This document shows positions 992-9,650 of a stretch of DNA of 10,147 nt, one piece after another. Origin of the DNA: a bacterium (lineage in GTDB: Bacteria; Blakebacterota; Blakebacteria; Blakebacterales; Blakebacteraceae). Both the position numbers and the translations under genes were made by a program. Every line of letters begins with the position of its first letter. Within the stretch, counting starts at the first letter, position 1. The notes beneath the pieces are model-generated. The model was given only the letters and a program-made list of their open reading frames with translations. It was not told where the DNA came from and did no database searches. The DNA lies in assembly GCA_025774615.1 (NCBI GenBank), contig JALGVQ010000100.1, positions 1-10,147 of the forward strand, read 5' to 3'.

Positions 992-1681
992 TCAGGTACC
1001 CCATTCTTCAGGTGTATCCTCGCTCTTTTCCCTGAATCCTATCCTATAGTAGGGGTTGATGATACTTGTTGCGACGTTCTTGATGTGGGCACTGATCCTC
1101 TTGAGATATCTGATGTAAAGAGCTGCGACAACTGCCACGCCGCAGCCGCCGGAGAGGACACCACCGGTCTTGAGACGCTTGATATTCGATTCCACCAGTT
1201 TCACGACCGACTCGTGATCTGCGAGGATCTTCCTGGCGATTTCGGCATCATTGGTCTCGAGTGCCGGTATGATCGTCTCGAACATGGAGGTGAGGGTGTC
1301 CTCGATCATCGTGACATCCTCATCGATCTCACCGGGGTTGAATACTTCCGGAAGGTCCTGGGCCAGTTCCACGATGTTCTTGGTGAAATCCCCGATCCGT
1401 TCGATATCGATGACGATCGCGGTCAGTACAAGGGCGTGATTGGCATCCGGGTTCTGCGATATCGCGAGATGGGTAACGATCTTCCTTCTGACGTCCCGCT
1501 CATACTTGTTGAGCTGCCTGTCCCGCTCATAGATGTCGAATTCGAGCGTGCCTTCCTTTCTCAGGGAAGCAACAGCGGCATTGAACATGACTTGTGATGC
1601 CCTGAGCATGGTGATCGCCTCCTTGAATGCTTCATCAGTGAGGCTCTCTTTTTTAAACAGCTGGAAGATCTTTTTCCACAT
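992..1681 (-). CDS. PhoU-domain protein, partner of the Na+/phosphate cotransporter
   Basis: A 229-residue helical protein of the PhoU family. Such proteins are cytoplasmic regulators of phosphate uptake and are often encoded beside, or fused to, Na+/Pi cotransporters. Two PhoU-like repeats are visible. The first has 'YERDVRRKI' (60-68) and 'DIERIGDFTKNI' (92-103), close to the family's metal-binding E-x3-D and ERIGD signatures. The second has 'DHESVVKLVESNIKRL' (155-170) and a degenerate 'RYLKRISAHIKNVATSI' (191-207). Between them lies 'GGVLSGGCGVAVVAALYI' (173-190), which is unusually Gly- and Ala-rich and hydrophobic for a PhoU helix. ATG at 1681 is preceded by AGGGAG at 9 bases. It is the second gene of the block, 38 bp after the transporter. 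The transporter lacks the C-terminal PhoU domain found in many relatives, so this protein probably supplies it in trans. Confidence 0.88.
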   Translation of the reverse strand: MWKKIFQLFKKESLTDEAFKEAITMLRASQVMFNAAVASLRKEGTLEFDIYERDRQLNKYERDVRRKIVTHLAISQNPDANHALVLTAIVIDIERIGDFTKNIVELAQDLPEVFNPGEIDEDVTMIEDTLTSMFETIIPALETNDAEIARKILADHESVVKLVESNIKRLKTGGVLSGGCGVAVVAALYIRYLKRISAHIKNVATSIINPYYRIGFREKSEDTPEEWGT

Positions 1682-1683
1682 TT

Positions 1684-1713
1684 CAGGTCACTCCCTATTA
1701 CAGGTCACTCCCT
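1684..1713. repeat. 13-bp direct repeat carrying duplicated Shine-Dalgarno
   Basis: CAGGTCACTCCCT occurs at 1684-1696 and again exactly at 1701-1713, a 17-bp period with TATTA plus flank between. On the minus strand each copy reads AGGGAGTGACCTG. The copy nearest the PhoU-like gene supplies its ribosome-binding site; the other lies just after the transporter stop codon. Confidence 0.9.
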
Positions 1714-1719
1714 CGGATA

Positions 1720-2814
1720 CTATTTCAACAGGAGGTACAGTATCGGGATCAGGTACAGGGCAAAATACCCGAGCACGATCAGTACTGTATTACCACCGGA
1801 CCTGCCCGCGACTTCACCTGCTTTTGTCGCCAGCCAGATCGGAAGACTCTTCACGGGATACAGGATCGCGATCCCCAGGATGTTGAATGTAAGGTGAGCG
1901 AGCGCCACCGTTATCGCCATCGGGTTCCCCGTCGCGAAGGAGGCCAGGATTGCGGTGACGGTGGTACCTATATTCGCTCCCAGAGTGTAGGGAAAGATTT
2001 TTCGAACGGTCAGCACGTTGGTGCCCACCAGGGGCACAACGAGTGATGTCGTGGCAGAACTGCTCTGCACTGTCGCGGTCAGCACGGCCCCCAGAGTGAA
2101 GCTTGCCAGATCGTTTCTGAAGAGCACGCGATCAAAAAGAGCTTCGATCCGCTGCAATACCGTGCTGCGCATGATCCGGACCATCTGCGAGAGCGCGAAG
2201 AAAAGCAGGAACATGGCGAGTATCACCAGCGGCAGTGAATGGGGGATCAGCTCAGAGATTGCATGACTGAGTGGTTTGACTATCACTTGCAGGGGGCTGA
2301 CCAGACTCAAACCACCTATTCCTGAGAATGCATTGGAAAGTGTGACCGCTATTTTTTCGACGGGATGGAAGAGCAGTTCAATAGGGAAGATGACAATCAC
2401 GGCCAGGACATTGAAAATATCGTGAACGGTGCCGGCAGCGAACGCCCTCTTGAACTCACCCCTTCGCGTCACATGGCCGAGTGAAACGATGGTGTTGGTC
2501 ACTGTTGTGCCGATATTCGCGCCCATGATCATCGGTATCGCCAGGCGCAGGTCGAGGGTGCCGGAGGCAACCAGACCGACAACGATCGACGTGGTCGATG
2601 ATGAACTCTGGACCAGACTGGTCGCCAGCATTCCCAGGATCAGGCCGGCCAGCGGGTCAGCAACGGTTTCGAGAAGGGTGTTCGCGAACCCTGAGCCAGC
2701 CATCTTGAACGCTGAACTCATCAGGTCGATGCTGACGAAGAACAGGTAGAGAACGGCGAAGAAGGTTATCGCCCGCCGGATGGATCGCCAGGGACCGCTG
2801 TCAGACACCGGCAT
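1720..2814 (-). CDS. Na+/phosphate cotransporter family protein (NptA/SLC34-like)
   Basis: Integral membrane transporter expected to import inorganic phosphate with Na+. The two inverted-repeat halves are plain: 'QSSSSTTSIV' (69-78) with 'GANIGTTVTN' (98-107), and again 'QSSSATTSLV' (250-259) with 'GANIGTTVTA' (279-288). The QSSS elements are the substrate and ion-binding hallmark of this family. About eight hydrophobic segments and 364 residues make it a compact version without a C-terminal PhoU domain; that domain is supplied by the next gene. ATG at 2814 is chosen because AGGA (2823-2826, complement) lies 8 bases before it. ATG at 2820 would add two residues but leave only 2 bases of spacing. 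It is the first gene of the minus-strand block leading into the Rieske/cytochrome b pair. The family is certain; the transported ion is inferred from the family. Confidence 0.94.
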   Translation of the reverse strand: MPVSDSGPWRSIRRAITFFAVLYLFFVSIDLMSSAFKMAGSGFANTLLETVADPLAGLILGMLATSLVQSSSSTTSIVVGLVASGTLDLRLAIPMIMGANIGTTVTNTIVSLGHVTRRGEFKRAFAAGTVHDIFNVLAVIVIFPIELLFHPVEKIAVTLSNAFSGIGGLSLVSPLQVIVKPLSHAISELIPHSLPLVILAMFLLFFALSQMVRIMRSTVLQRIEALFDRVLFRNDLASFTLGAVLTATVQSSSATTSLVVPLVGTNVLTVRKIFPYTLGANIGTTVTAILASFATGNPMAITVALAHLTFNILGIAILYPVKSLPIWLATKAGEVAGRSGGNTVLIVLGYFALYLIPILYLLLK

Positions 2815-2840
2815 GTACATCGTCCTGATTGGTGGGTCAC

Positions 2841-4543: not shown

Positions 4544-4576
4544 ATGGGCGGACTTCAGTCCGACCGGTCCGCCCAT
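4544..4576. terminator. Strong inverted repeat between convergent genes, likely bidirectional terminator
   Basis: ATGGGCGGAC (4544-4553) and GTCCGCCCAT (4567-4576) pair perfectly over 10 bp with a 13-base loop. The element straddles the 3' end of the methyltransferase gene, 15 bp past the DUF2892 stop codon. There is no T-run on either strand. A competing inner hairpin, CGGAC-TTCA-GTCCG (4549-4562), uses part of the same left arm. Confidence 0.55.
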
Positions 4577-5127
4577 CCGGAACCAACCCTTTCCAGTATT
4601 CTGTATCCGACAACCGCGACCGCCGTCGCGACGTTGAGGGAGTTCTTGAACCCATAGGTCGGGATCTCGACGAATCCGTCGCACAGCTCGAGCACCTCAC
4701 GACTCACACCAAGGGCTTCGTTCCCGAATACCAGACCGACCGGGTTCGGGAACTCTATGGAATCGTACCGTCGCGCGTGTGTTGTCGTCTCTACCGCCCA
4801 GACCGGGATGTCCATCTCTCTGAGATCCTCTACTGCATGGGCAGTATCCTCGAAGTGTTTCCACGGCACATACCGGATTGTCCCGAGTGATGTCTTCTCC
4901 AGTTTCTTGTGAGGAGGAAAGGCGGTATATCCGCAGAGATAGAGTCCCGAGACACGCATGGTATCGCAGAGACGGAATATCGATCCGACGTTGAATGCGC
5001 TCCTGAGATTGTCGAGGATGATGTAGAGGGGGGCTTTCGGCAGGGCGCGATACTCATCGAGCGGCATATCAAGATCGAAGCTTCGGACCTCGAAACTGGT
5101 TTCCATGTCACCCGGCTTTCGAGACAT
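4555..5127 (-). CDS. SpoU/TrmH-family RNA 2'-O-methyltransferase
   Basis: A 190-residue SPOUT-superfamily enzyme expected to transfer methyl from S-adenosylmethionine to a ribose 2'-OH in tRNA or rRNA. All three SpoU motifs are present: motif 1 'DNLRSAFNVGSIFR' (39-52) with the catalytic Arg42 and Asn46; motif 2 'LVFGNEALGVS' (132-142); motif 3 'IPTYGFKNSLNVATAVAVVG' (155-174), which forms the knot and binds the cofactor. It has no N-terminal L30e-like RNA-binding domain; the first 30 residues are a short polar extension. The target nucleotide cannot be told from sequence. ATG at 5127 is preceded by a GAGGAGGAGG run that gives a strong ribosome-binding site. It lies 67 bp downstream of thyX on the same strand and probably shares its transcript. 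Confidence 0.92.
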   Translation of the reverse strand: MSRKPGDMETSFEVRSFDLDMPLDEYRALPKAPLYIILDNLRSAFNVGSIFRLCDTMRVSGLYLCGYTAFPPHKKLEKTSLGTIRYVPWKHFEDTAHAVEDLREMDIPVWAVETTTHARRYDSIEFPNPVGLVFGNEALGVSREVLELCDGFVEIPTYGFKNSLNVATAVAVVGYRILERVGSGWADRSD

Positions 5128-5194: not shown

Positions 5195-6712
5195 TCAGGT
5201 GAAGAGATCCGATTTCTTCTCTTCGAAAATATCCTTGCCGTACGCGAGCATGAGCGTCAACGGCGCTGTCTCGCGCGCGAGGTCGAGCATGTCGCCGGCT
5301 ACCTCCCGGATGTCCCACTGGGCGTGGGCATCCTCACGCAGGCGGGAGATATGGTAGAGTTCCCGGGCGTCTGCTCTCACGATCATCCGCCGCCGGTGAC
5401 CGTTGGTGAGCACATATTCCGCCGCACGCGGATGATTTCCCTTCAATCGCGTGAAGGCTTCACTCGTACGGTCATAGATCCGCTCGAAGGAATCCTTCAG
5501 GCCGGCTTCGATTACAGAGGGCGGGTATGTGTAGCCGAGTGAGGGCTCGTATCCCTGCAGCAGTTGCGTGGTCATCCGGTGTCGTTTCATCTGACCGAAA
5601 CAGGCGGCGCTCAAGACGACCTCAAAGGTGAAGTGCGCCAGCTCGAATTCCCGCGTCGCCGCTTCCCAGGGATTAGAGAAGCGAAGGAATTCCCTGATCA
5701 CCTGCTTGGCGCGTTCTCCCTCTTCCATGAGCCGGCGTGCCATCCGGGCACAGCTCTCGACAGGTTCACGTGAATGAGCATGGATGATTGCCTGCAAGGT
5801 TGTGTGGTCGGGATCAGGTGAAGTTTCAAGCAGTTTCACACCACCGCTTGAGGGGAAGGGGGGCTCTGACTCCCCAGGGATGTCCCGGTATCCCTGTACG
5901 ATCTCATCGATGATCGTCTCGGTGTGGGAATGGGTCCTGGTGAAGTAGTCCTCCACCAGGGGCCTCCCGAACTCCTTCTCATATTCCACCGGGTCGGTCA
6001 GGAGGATCAGGGAAGGCGCGACCGCCCCTGCCTGCCGGTAGAACTCCTCGCCGAGGTCCCGCGCCTCTTTCAGAGGGTTGGCTCGCAGAGACCTGATCAC
6101 ATACTCAAGGTTCCGCCCGCTGGCGGTGAAACCGAGTTGCGCTTTCGTGGCAAGGCCGGTCACATAGCGCGCGTCCTCCTTGGCGTATCCCTCCACGACC
6201 TTGCTGTCCCGTTTCGATTCGAGCATGTCGGGATGTTTCTGCCGGAAATGATCCAGCAGAATGCCATAGGCCTCGCGATAGACCGCGAACTGCTCACTCA
6301 GGGTCTCCCTGAAGAGTGTGAGGTCTTCTCCCTCGAGTTCGGCCGGTTCGACAAAGTCCTCTTCCAGTTCCTGGTACCGCTGGGATTTTTCGGTATAGGA
6401 GCAGAGCCGGTGCCATTGCAGGGCTTCAACACAGAGCCGGGAGATATCGAGGATGTCGAAGTTGAAAACTGCGTGTTCAGCTACTGACTGATGTCCCATG
6501 TCGAAGACGATACTGCGTGCCGACCGCCTGGCCGCTTCGATGTCATTGATCGATTTCTCCCTCAACTGCGTTACCGGTGAGGGGTCCCGGCTGATGCGCG
6601 CGTAGGCCACCGCGATCGTCTCCGGTGTGAACGCGTCCGGGTTTTCCGCCCTCGTTCGGGCCTGCTCGATGAGCGAAATATCGAGGTTGTAACCGGCAAG
6701 GATGATCCGCAT
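5195..6712 (-). CDS. thyX: Tandem (two-domain) FAD-dependent thymidylate synthase ThyX
   Basis: Flavin-dependent synthase making dTMP from dUMP with methylene-tetrahydrofolate. It has 505 residues, about twice a normal ThyX (220-250), and consists of two ThyX-like halves. Half 1 (about 1-240) has the 'GHQSVAEHAVFNF' box (73-85) and the ThyX motif as W100-H-R-x7-S110 with Glu108 and Arg112. Half 2 (about 300-505) has Q374 and R377-H-R379 but lacks the motif Ser (Gly387), then 'ARELYHISRLR' (449-459) and 'AQWDIR' (464-469). Each half lacks residues the other keeps, suggesting one composite active site per chain (see findings). ATG at 6712 begins the typical 'MRIILAGYN' N-terminus; the Shine-Dalgarno is weak (AGG, 3 bases away), and the upstream 35 in-frame codons look non-coding. 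No classical ThyA is in view. Tandem ThyX proteins occur in some bacteria and are not unique to this one. Confidence 0.93.
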   Translation of the reverse strand: MRIILAGYNLDISLIEQARTRAENPDAFTPETIAVAYARISRDPSPVTQLREKSINDIEAARRSARSIVFDMGHQSVAEHAVFNFDILDISRLCVEALQWHRLCSYTEKSQRYQELEEDFVEPAELEGEDLTLFRETLSEQFAVYREAYGILLDHFRQKHPDMLESKRDSKVVEGYAKEDARYVTGLATKAQLGFTASGRNLEYVIRSLRANPLKEARDLGEEFYRQAGAVAPSLILLTDPVEYEKEFGRPLVEDYFTRTHSHTETIIDEIVQGYRDIPGESEPPFPSSGGVKLLETSPDPDHTTLQAIIHAHSREPVESCARMARRLMEEGERAKQVIREFLRFSNPWEAATREFELAHFTFEVVLSAACFGQMKRHRMTTQLLQGYEPSLGYTYPPSVIEAGLKDSFERIYDRTSEAFTRLKGNHPRAAEYVLTNGHRRRMIVRADARELYHISRLREDAHAQWDIREVAGDMLDLARETAPLTLMLAYGKDIFEEKKSDLFT

Positions 6713-6917: not shown

Positions 6918-9650
6918 ATGAACAGAGCCTCCTTTACATGCCGGACTCAGCTGATAGTCGCGATTATCCTTCTGGCGGGTGGGTGCGGACGCCAGCAGGG
7001 AGGCGCTCCTTTCTCTTCCTGGCCCGATGGTGTCGAGCGGGTCTGGGTCGGACCGGAGTACTTCGCCAACCGGCTCGCGGACTGGAAGATCAACGATGGC
7101 AGACTTGAGTGTGTCGAGGCCGAGCGGAGATTTCCCCTCCGCACCGTTTTCCTTCTCACCAGGTCATTGAAGTCCGGCAATGGCTCATTCTCCATGCGGG
7201 TACGTACCGGTGCGATCGAGACTGACCGGTCACCATCGGCCGAGTCGTTCAGAGGATTTCTGATAGGCGGGGGAGGGGAGCATGTCGATTACCGGCTCAC
7301 TGCCTGGACCCATCATAAGCCTGCCGAGGATGGCGGGCTCTTCGCGGTGATCGATGGCTCGGGGACCGTCGCCTTCAGGAGCAATTCGGCTGATCTCCAG
7401 GTAGGGAATCAGTGGGCGGTGAGTGGCGGTGTCGAGAGCGACACGATACCGATCCTGGCAGGCGGGCCGGATGAGAGCAGTCCGATCGCCGGTGGATTAC
7501 GCGCGCCGGTCATTCTGGAACTCAAGGGTGAGATGGTGGGCGATGTGTATCAGTTGAAACTGACGGCCCTGGATGGGGAGAGCGGGGTGGTTCTCAGTGA
7601 GGCACTCTACGACGGAGTACCCCGGGAATACCTGGATGGAGGGATCGCGCTCGTTTCCCACCTCGGGCCAACAGGCAGTCTCCGGGGATACTGGTTCGAG
7701 GAGTGGAAGGTATCGGGTCCAAAGGTCGAGCGGCATGACGAGCGCCGTTTCGGTCCGGTGCTCACCACCCAGTACACCCTCAGTGAGGGGATCCTCCACA
7801 TGACCGCCCAGATGCCGCCACTCGGTCTCGATGATGTGGGAGCGGTCACTCTCGAAGTCAAAGAGAAGGGACGGGGAGCATGGACAGCCATCGACGAGAC
7901 CGAATGGATCGAGGACAGCTACATTGCCCCGTTCAGGGTCGAAGGGTGGGACTCCTCGCGTGATATACCATTCCGCGTGCTCTACGACCTGAAGACCGGT
8001 CCGAATGAGTACCGCTCATACTCGTACGAAGGGGTGATCCGGGCAGAGCCTGATGATGAGGATTTCGTGGTGGCGGCCTTCACTGGAAACAAGTGCTACA
8101 CCGGCGGTCTGAAGTGGAACAGCCAGGGGTACTGGTTCCCCCATAGTGAAGTGATCGATGCGGTCACCTGGCACGATCCCGATTTCCTTTTCTTCTCAGG
8201 CGACCAGGTATATGAGGGAGACCTCACCCCGGCAATACGGAACCCCATCGATAAGGCGATGCTCGATTATCTCTATAAATGGTATCGATGGTGCTGGGCG
8301 TTCCGTGATCTGACACGCGATCGTCCCGCGGTCACCATCCCCGACGACCACGACGTCTACCACGGCAATATCTGGGGCGCTGGCGGGAAAAAGGCCGAGG
8401 CGGCTGAAGGGATGACGGCTCAGGACAGCGGCGGCTACGTGATGCCGGAACGATTTGTGAATATGGTGCACCAGACCCAGACCTCCCATCTGCCCGATCC
8501 GTATGATCCCACACCTTCAGGACAGGGGATCTCGGTCTACTACTCCGACGTGAACTATGGCGGTGTGAGCTTTGCCGTCATCGCTGATCGGCAGTGGAAG
8601 TCCTCCCCGACTGTTGCCGTGCCGGATGGCCGTTTTGTGAACGGCTGGCCACAGAATACCGATTTCGATCCGGCAACAGAGGCGGATGTGCCGGGGGCGG
8701 TGCTCCTGGGAGAGAGACAGCTCGGGTTCCTGAGGGAGTGGTCTGCCGACTGGTCGAACGCGACCTGGATGAAAGTCGTCCTCTCCCAGACGATCTTTGC
8801 CAATATCGCCACGATACCCTCCGACGCGATGAGTGGATCAGTACTGCCTTCGGTCCCGTTCCTCGACCCTGATGTGTATCCCGACAACTGGAAGAAGGCC
8901 ACTGATGGTGATTCGAACGGGTGGCCGCAGACAGGAAGGGACAACGCGATCCGGGAGATGCGCCGTGGATTCGCTCTGCATATCGCGGGAGACCAGCATC
9001 TGGGGAGCACGATCCAGTACGGAGTGGATGACTGGGGTGACGCGGGTTTTGCCCTCTGTGTACCGTCGGTCGGCAATACCTGGCCACGCAGGTGGTTCCC
9101 CCCCGAATCGGGCATGAACCGGGAACCGGGTACGCCGAAGTACACCGGTGACTTCTTCGACGGATTCGGGAACCGGATGACGGTCCACGCCGTATCCAAT
9201 CCCTTCCTGACCGGCATGGAACCCACGAACCTCAATAACCGGGCTCCCGGATACGGGATCGTCCACCTCAATCGGAAGACCAGAGAGATCACCATCGAGT
9301 GCTGGCCCCGCTGGGTGGATCCCTCGGCTCCCGATGCCGAGCAGTACCCCGGCTGGCCGGTGACACTCCACCAGCTCGACAATTACAGTCGGGAACCGGC
9401 AGGATACCTTCCCCGGATAACGGTCGAGGGACTCGATGATCCGGTCATCCAGGTGATCGCGGAGAATACCGGAGAGATCATCTACACCATCCGGATCGCG
9501 GGGCAGGGCATACAGCCCCGGGTGTTCTCCCTTGAGGGGACCTATACCCTGGTCGTCGGTGATCCCGATCTGGAAATAGAGGAGCGATTCACCGGACTGC
9601 AGGCAGTTGCGGATCGGGCAGATGTGTCGGGGTTGTTGATCTCGTTCTGA
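6918..9650 (+). CDS. PhoD-like metallophosphoesterase lipoprotein with N-terminal beta-sandwich region
   Basis: A 910-residue secreted lipoprotein; the signal peptide ends in the lipobox L-A-G-G-C with Cys23. Residues about 35-270 look like a beta-rich, possibly ConA/lectin-like domain ('FRGFLIGGGGEHVDYRL', 'GYWFEEWKVSGPKV'), and about 280-375 a linker or second sandwich. The PhoD-type catalytic domain (about 383-800) has 'FFSGDQVYEGD' (425-435), 'IPDDHDVYHGN' (474-484), 'VLSQTIFAN' (621-629) and 'HIAGDQHLG' (688-696). These are the metal-binding GD, DDHD and GDxH motifs of the PhoD/metallophosphatase superfamily. Residues 835-905 form another beta-rich tail. PhoD enzymes cleave phosphodiesters and monoesters outside the cytoplasm; the substrate here is unknown. 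It is longer than classical PhoD (about 550-580). The ribosome-binding site lies in a hairpin. A sulfatase gene follows after 69 bp, suggesting joint use on a complex extracellular substrate. Confidence 0.88.
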   Translation: MNRASFTCRTQLIVAIILLAGGCGRQQGGAPFSSWPDGVERVWVGPEYFANRLADWKINDGRLECVEAERRFPLRTVFLLTRSLKSGNGSFSMRVRTGAIETDRSPSAESFRGFLIGGGGEHVDYRLTAWTHHKPAEDGGLFAVIDGSGTVAFRSNSADLQVGNQWAVSGGVESDTIPILAGGPDESSPIAGGLRAPVILELKGEMVGDVYQLKLTALDGESGVVLSEALYDGVPREYLDGGIALVSHLGPTGSLRGYWFEEWKVSGPKVERHDERRFGPVLTTQYTLSEGILHMTAQMPPLGLDDVGAVTLEVKEKGRGAWTAIDETEWIEDSYIAPFRVEGWDSSRDIPFRVLYDLKTGPNEYRSYSYEGVIRAEPDDEDFVVAAFTGNKCYTGGLKWNSQGYWFPHSEVIDAVTWHDPDFLFFSGDQVYEGDLTPAIRNPIDKAMLDYLYKWYRWCWAFRDLTRDRPAVTIPDDHDVYHGNIWGAGGKKAEAAEGMTAQDSGGYVMPERFVNMVHQTQTSHLPDPYDPTPSGQGISVYYSDVNYGGVSFAVIADRQWKSSPTVAVPDGRFVNGWPQNTDFDPATEADVPGAVLLGERQLGFLREWSADWSNATWMKVVLSQTIFANIATIPSDAMSGSVLPSVPFLDPDVYPDNWKKATDGDSNGWPQTGRDNAIREMRRGFALHIAGDQHLGSTIQYGVDDWGDAGFALCVPSVGNTWPRRWFPPESGMNREPGTPKYTGDFFDGFGNRMTVHAVSNPFLTGMEPTNLNNRAPGYGIVHLNRKTREITIECWPRWVDPSAPDAEQYPGWPVTLHQLDNYSREPAGYLPRITVEGLDDPVIQVIAENTGEIIYTIRIAGQGIQPRVFSLEGTYTLVVGDPDLEIEERFTGLQAVADRADVSGLLISF

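Follow-up and report, generated by a model that had tools for sequence, protein, structure and literature searches.

Flavin-dependent thymidylate synthase (ThyX, or FDTS) supplies many pathogens with a DNA precursor and, being absent from humans, is a target for drugs. In its single-domain form, represented by TM0449 of Thermotoga maritima (TM) and by the Mycobacterium tuberculosis and PBCV-1 enzymes, every subunit carries the whole set of active-site residues and the four sites are equivalent; because each mutation affects all roles at once, the shares of the three subunits in a site have been hard to separate. Fused or paired homologous domains, of which one of two symmetry-related sites is active, are known from the class III adenylyl cyclase C1/C2 pseudo-heterodimer and the two-domain archaeal tRNA-splicing endonuclease. 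The tandem ThyX described here resembles both in this respect, although their folds are unrelated and tandem ThyX would split three subunit roles two to one.

In complexes of the M. tuberculosis and H. pylori enzymes, subunit A contributes Arg95 and Arg199 to dUMP binding and subunit C contributes Arg87, Ser105, Arg107 and the lid residue Tyr108; the FAD phosphates are bound by the RHR motif of A together with Ser71 and Arg190 of B, and the flavins of A and B are positioned face to face (PMC6514825). By alignment, Arg95 and Arg199 correspond to TM R78 and R174, Arg87, Ser105, Arg107 and Tyr108 to TM positions 70, 88, 90 and 91, and Ser71 and Arg190 to TM T55 and R165. In T. maritima, Y91 is paired with an H53 that comes from a third monomer (PMC11940539), and in the PBCV-1 site Ser88 of monomer B joins Gln75 and Arg182 of A (PMC3498832). 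Tandem ThyX shares with these enzymes the fold, the RHR and S-x-R-Y motifs, the composite interface sites and the status of usually being the sole thymidylate synthase of the genome, but its residue set is split over two domains of one chain.

The tandem ThyX gene and its surroundings

The window analysed here, 10,147 nucleotides in full, encodes a tandem ThyX of 505 aa on the minus strand (6712..5195). The ATG at 6712 is taken as Met1, in agreement with the starts of homologues in the alignment; the mechanical open reading frame runs further, to 6817. The protein scores 200.9 bits against PF02511 (Thy1), in two stretches, and 128.7 bits against TIGR02170, whose curated cut-off is 87.9, and so belongs to the ThyX family. 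Its two halves are 17% identical over aligned columns. An AlphaFold2 model of the single chain, built from an alignment of 23 tandems, has a mean pLDDT of 86.1 and a pTM of 0.83. Both halves are predicted to adopt the ThyX fold: in the model, residues 1-254 match M. tuberculosis ThyX (2af6_C; Z 15.0, rmsd 3.2 over 215) and residues 285-496 match T. maritima ThyX (1o24_A; Z 17.4, rmsd 2.2 over 188).

5195..6712, minus strand: tandem ThyX gene, 505 aa; two PF02511 matches (E 2.2e-59 for the whole protein), TIGR02170 thyX above cut-off, start matching homologues
5948..6712, minus strand: half 1, residues about 1-255, predicted ThyX fold (AlphaFold2 model), with subunit C and B residues
5195..5860, minus strand: half 2, residues about 285-505, predicted ThyX fold (AlphaFold2 model), with subunit A residues

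The source genome is fragmented (324 contigs, 82% complete) and belongs to a lineage with few relatives. Among named records, the nearest full-length match is from a Candidatus Latescibacterota MAG, with an identity of 68% in the best segment and 69% in the alignment. Two further close relatives (L034, L035; 58-64% identical) lie on contigs labelled as Thermoplasmata archaea, reflecting either recent transfer or mis-binning. Downstream of thyX, on the same strand and 67 bases away, is a SpoU-family RNA methylase gene (4555-5127), possibly in one operon with it. The window also encodes a PhoU-domain protein and a Na/Pi cotransporter (992-2820, minus strand) and a large PhoD-like phosphatase (6918-9650, plus strand), so that thyX sits in a phosphate-related neighbourhood.

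Active-site residues are divided between the two halves

The original prediction, read from the sequence, proposed that the two halves had reciprocally lost active-site residues, and each residue that it listed was confirmed in the translation and alignment, as was its T. maritima numbering, which agrees with TM0449 as printed in PDB alignments. Half 1 has Glu108, Ser110, Arg112 and Arg182, with Ala97 and Trp100 at the degenerate positions, and additionally retains His74, Ser76, Arg92 and Tyr113; half 2 lacks equivalents of His74, Ser76 and Arg92. Conversely, half 2 has Gln374, Arg377-His378-Arg379 and Arg459 but differs at the remaining positions, where it carries Glu432 as well as Leu385, Gly387 and Glu389, whose pairing with E86, S88 and R90 depends on the alignment, given a gap at TM 83-84 in the half 2 loop of most tandems. 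The S-x-R-Y motif is missing from half 2 whatever alignment is chosen. The features are as follows, with counts from the survey described below.

6485..6493, minus strand: His74-x-Ser76 (TM His53, Thr55), third-subunit residues, half 1; H53 in 69/77 and S/T55 in 77/77 half 1 domains vs 27/76 and 15/76 half 2 domains (role from PMC6514825 and PMC11940539)
6437..6439, minus strand: Arg92 (TM position 70; M. tuberculosis Arg87), dUMP residue, half 1; 57/77 half 1, 0/76 half 2 (role from PMC6514825)
6413..6424, minus strand: Ala97 to Trp100, degenerate Q75...R78 positions by alignment, half 1; R78 retained in only 3/77 half 1
6374..6391, minus strand: Glu108-x-Ser110-x-Arg112-Tyr113 (TM E86, S88, R90, Y91), active-site loop, half 1; S88, R90 and Y91 in 77/77 half 1
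6167..6169, minus strand: Arg182 (TM R147), half 1; 77/77 half 1, 1/76 half 2
5576..5593, minus strand: Gln374 and Arg377-His378-Arg379 (TM Q75, R78-H79-R80), half 2; RHR in 76/76 complete half 2
5546..5560, minus strand: Leu385, Gly387, Glu389, degenerate loop, half 2; S88 and R90 together in no half 2
5336..5338, minus strand: Arg459 (TM R174), half 2; 76/76 half 2

Neither domain combines RHR with S-x-R as a single-domain ThyX does, RHR occurring only in half 2 and S-x-R-Y only in half 1. All dUMP and flavin contact residues are nonetheless present somewhere in the protein, with R78, H79, R80 and R174 in half 2 and position 70, S88, R90, Y91, R147, H53 and S/T55 in half 1. Judged by its sequence, the protein reads as a ThyX variant rather than a typical single-domain member, with a set that is complete only across the chain.

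Read against the published complexes, half 2 appears to retain the residues of subunit A, and half 1 those of subunit C together with those of B (H53, S/T55). This alters parts of the original prediction. Its composite site stands, but the site draws on three subunits in the published complexes instead of the two assumed. Likewise, its count of one productive and one dead site per chain holds, but neither site would lie inside one chain, because three subunits are needed and the third-subunit residues H53 and S/T55 also sit in half 1. For the same reason, the assignment of the FAD side to half 2 alone has to be given up.

The reciprocal split is general among tandem ThyX

Of 386 genomes spread over the domain, 279 had ThyX in a Pfam search, and 78 of these, from 53 families, carry a tandem. 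Eighty tandem open reading frames, from the surveyed genomes and the contigs of named genomes, were split into halves, leaving 77 after removal at >90% identity; 77 half 1 and 76 complete half 2 domains were aligned with 25 single-domain ThyX, including TM0449. S88, R90, Y91 and R147 occur in every half 1 domain (77/77), as does S/T55 (77/77), with H53 in 69/77 and R70 in 57/77. The half 2 domains (n=76) have S88 in 6, R90 in 5, Y91 in 48 (Y or F), R147 in 1, S/T55 in 15, H53 in 27 and R70 in none, and no half 2 among the 76 genome tandems combines S88 with R90. The converse holds for R78, H79, R80 and R174, present in 76/76 half 2 domains and in 3, 31, 55 and 28, respectively, of the 77 half 1 domains. 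Among the genome tandems, no residue at 75, 78, 79, 80 or 174 is retained solely in half 1, and none at 70, 86, 88, 90, 91, 147, 53 or 55 solely in half 2. Taken over the whole chain, the set is complete in 76/76 complete non-redundant genome tandems, and R78, R80, S88, R90 and R174 are all present in 25/25 single-domain ThyX.

As a held-out check, we examined 21 tandems from IMG/VR viral contigs, found after the genome set had been assembled, and all 21 show the same split at S88, R90, Y91, R147, RHR and R174. The total is 97/97 complete tandems (76 genome, 21 viral-contig), and the split is therefore far beyond chance. The division of labour originally proposed, in which half 1 supplies the 86-90 and 147 side and half 2 the 75-78 and 174 side, is seen without exception in the tandems examined. 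The evidence named beforehand as counting against it, a homologue whose two halves both carry the full motif, was sought among the 97 complete tandems and not found; nor did any of them have independent complete sites in both halves. What does not survive is the view of reciprocal loss as a trait of the window protein, since tandem ThyX shows it generally.

The exceptions are few. Three half 1 domains (L056, L067, L072) still have R78, and that of L072 passes a five-residue full-motif test, yet lacks H79, with its R174 call falling in an uncertain column. Eight half 1 domains have Asp at H53. The presence of R80 in 55/77 half 1 domains suggests that some use of the half 1 RHR region remains. 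R165, a third-subunit residue, is present in both halves of most tandems and gone from both in one lineage, and does not discriminate between the halves. That lineage (L010, L028, L096-L112) has S-H-P in half 1 at the place of RHR; with R165 gone from both halves as well, its flavin phosphate contacts must differ.

A model for the tandem enzyme

We consider it very probable that the protein is an active flavin-dependent thymidylate synthase working as a homodimer of two-domain chains, a pseudo-tetramer with divided roles and with two working and two dead sites. From conservation and the published contacts we infer the quaternary arrangement, catalysis and the catalytic silence of the dead sites, including the homodimer itself, the predicted model being of a single chain. 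The homotetramer of four identical subunits would be replaced by a homodimer of tandem chains. Half 2 would serve only as subunit A, binding flavin through RHR and supplying R174; half 1 would serve only as subunits C and B, providing the active-site loop (S88, R90, Y91) and R147 for dUMP, and turning H53 and S/T55 to the flavin and folate face. Three domains would make up a working site, namely half 2 of one chain and the half 1 of each chain. If half 2 occupies positions A and D of a D2 tetramer and half 1 positions B and C, sites A and D would be complete and sites B and C would lack RHR. Each dimer would thus have two working and two dead sites, because a working site would need one half 2 and both half 1.

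The third-subunit role could instead be played by half 2, so that a site would comprise one half 1 and two half 2, or be formed inside a single chain with a structural neighbour added. In support of this, R165, a B residue, is present in 54/76 half 2 domains, and in single-domain ThyX the FAD of A faces that of B (PMC6514825). However, H53 and S/T55 are retained in half 1 (69/77 and 77/77) and mostly gone from half 2 (27/76 and 15/76), and we regard this arrangement as unlikely.

Two other explanations deny the division of labour itself. That neither half alone has all essential residues could mean that one half is a plain pseudoenzyme, with a regulatory or scaffold role or another reaction than thymidylate synthesis, yet the losses of one half are made up by the other in 97/97 complete tandems, and the tandem is the sole thymidylate synthase detected in most of the 78 genomes from 53 families, which makes this reading very improbable. 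Fusion of two ThyX genes by an assembly error or frameshift might be suspected in a genome of 324 contigs, but the frame is continuous, a full-length relative (67-69% identical) exists in another genome and the same architecture occurs in single-contig genomes (e.g. G060, G143, G014, G295); the full-length homologues and single-contig genomes rule out such an artefact, to which we give next to no credence. A separate candidate for a split tandem, L039, proved to be an assembly gap with duplicated flanks.

In a homodimer of tandem chains, the subunit roles are separated genetically, and residues of the flavin side and of the dUMP side can be mutated individually. The tandem form also offers a clean example from nature of reciprocal subfunctionalisation in an active site that obligately spans an interface, seen in every copy examined from >50 families.

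Function and selection

ThyA was found in none of the 78 tandem genomes, nor in any of the 67 that are at least 90% complete, and the tandem is therefore probably their only de novo thymidylate synthase. Mostly, the two halves are the only ThyX matches of these genomes in the Pfam search; G243 has a further, apparently damaged copy. The window genome (324 contigs, 82% complete) yielded no ThyA and no recognisable DHFR. The weight of the ThyA result is limited because single-ThyX genomes mostly lack ThyA too (n=63; eight matches, one full-length, the others weak and partial), and it tells us no more than that tandems act as ordinary ThyX does; the tandem appears to stand in for the latter.

In both halves, differences from relatives fall about 3 to 5 times as often on third as on second codon positions, and both look to be under purifying selection. 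Conservation and this codon-position pattern rule out a pseudogene. Since the same split is found in every tandem, across >50 families, this is probably a widespread working design and not a broken gene.

Previous records of tandem ThyX

That tandem ThyX proteins exist as annotated entries, as originally stated, is borne out by tandem-length records named FAD-dependent thymidylate synthase. Examples on large plasmids of Bacillus licheniformis and Paenibacillus match the window protein over 85-92% of its length, and their annotation does not set them apart from single-domain ThyX. The Chlamydia trachomatis ThyX, which we take to be about 529 aa and hence of tandem length, is probably also a tandem. 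C. trachomatis ThyX has been used in NADPH-oxidation assays (PMC3498832), and a mechanistic paper on it, Griffin 2005 (J Biol Chem), is cited in PMC2386288. The original prediction knew of no description of the division of labour, and our search of the open literature, with most subscription journals outside its range, likewise returned no account of tandem ThyX or of reciprocal loss. The reciprocally split tandem has apparently not been described before, the main risk to this statement being the 2005 C. trachomatis paper.

Origin and spread

Trees built with the active-site columns removed recovered two well-supported tandem lineages, with half 1 and half 2 in separate clades in each; a third consists of the lone L093 (G154), placed apart with single-domain ThyX. 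AU tests did not reject a single clade of all half 1 domains (p 0.62) or of all half 2 domains (p 0.66), nor trees in which the halves of one lineage were held together (p 0.36, 0.55). Trees and tests fit one fusion or several alike and cannot decide between them. On balance, we lean towards a broad, undescribed branch of ThyX, found in about 78/279 ThyX-bearing genomes of a spread sample, in which three subunit roles are split two to one between fused domains and every site needs both chains, and which may have originated repeatedly, each time with the same polarity.

Two unusual ThyX genes were met during the survey. L120 (G129, contig C1), a weak single Thy1 match of 306 aa and the only one in its genome, has Thr for the first Arg of RHR (THR) and retains the loop Ser and Arg. 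L115 (positions 347-2146; G094, contig C39) is a single-domain ThyX split by an intein with an HNH endonuclease (PF14890, PF01844), inserted at Thy1 profile position 81-82 within one 600-aa frame.

None of the records of an annotated phage collection covered >80% of the tandem protein. One tandem lineage (L129, L131, L132, L136, L139, L143) lies on viral contigs of about 90-230 kb and has an extra Asn in the half 2 motif (RHNR for RHR) and Trp at TM position 165. Plasmids of Bacillus and Paenibacillus, about 200 kb in size, carry similar tandems and may be phage-plasmids. Three further tandems (L122, L123, L124), 40-45% identical to the window protein, come from viral contigs that, at 340-470 kb, are as large as jumbo phage genomes.
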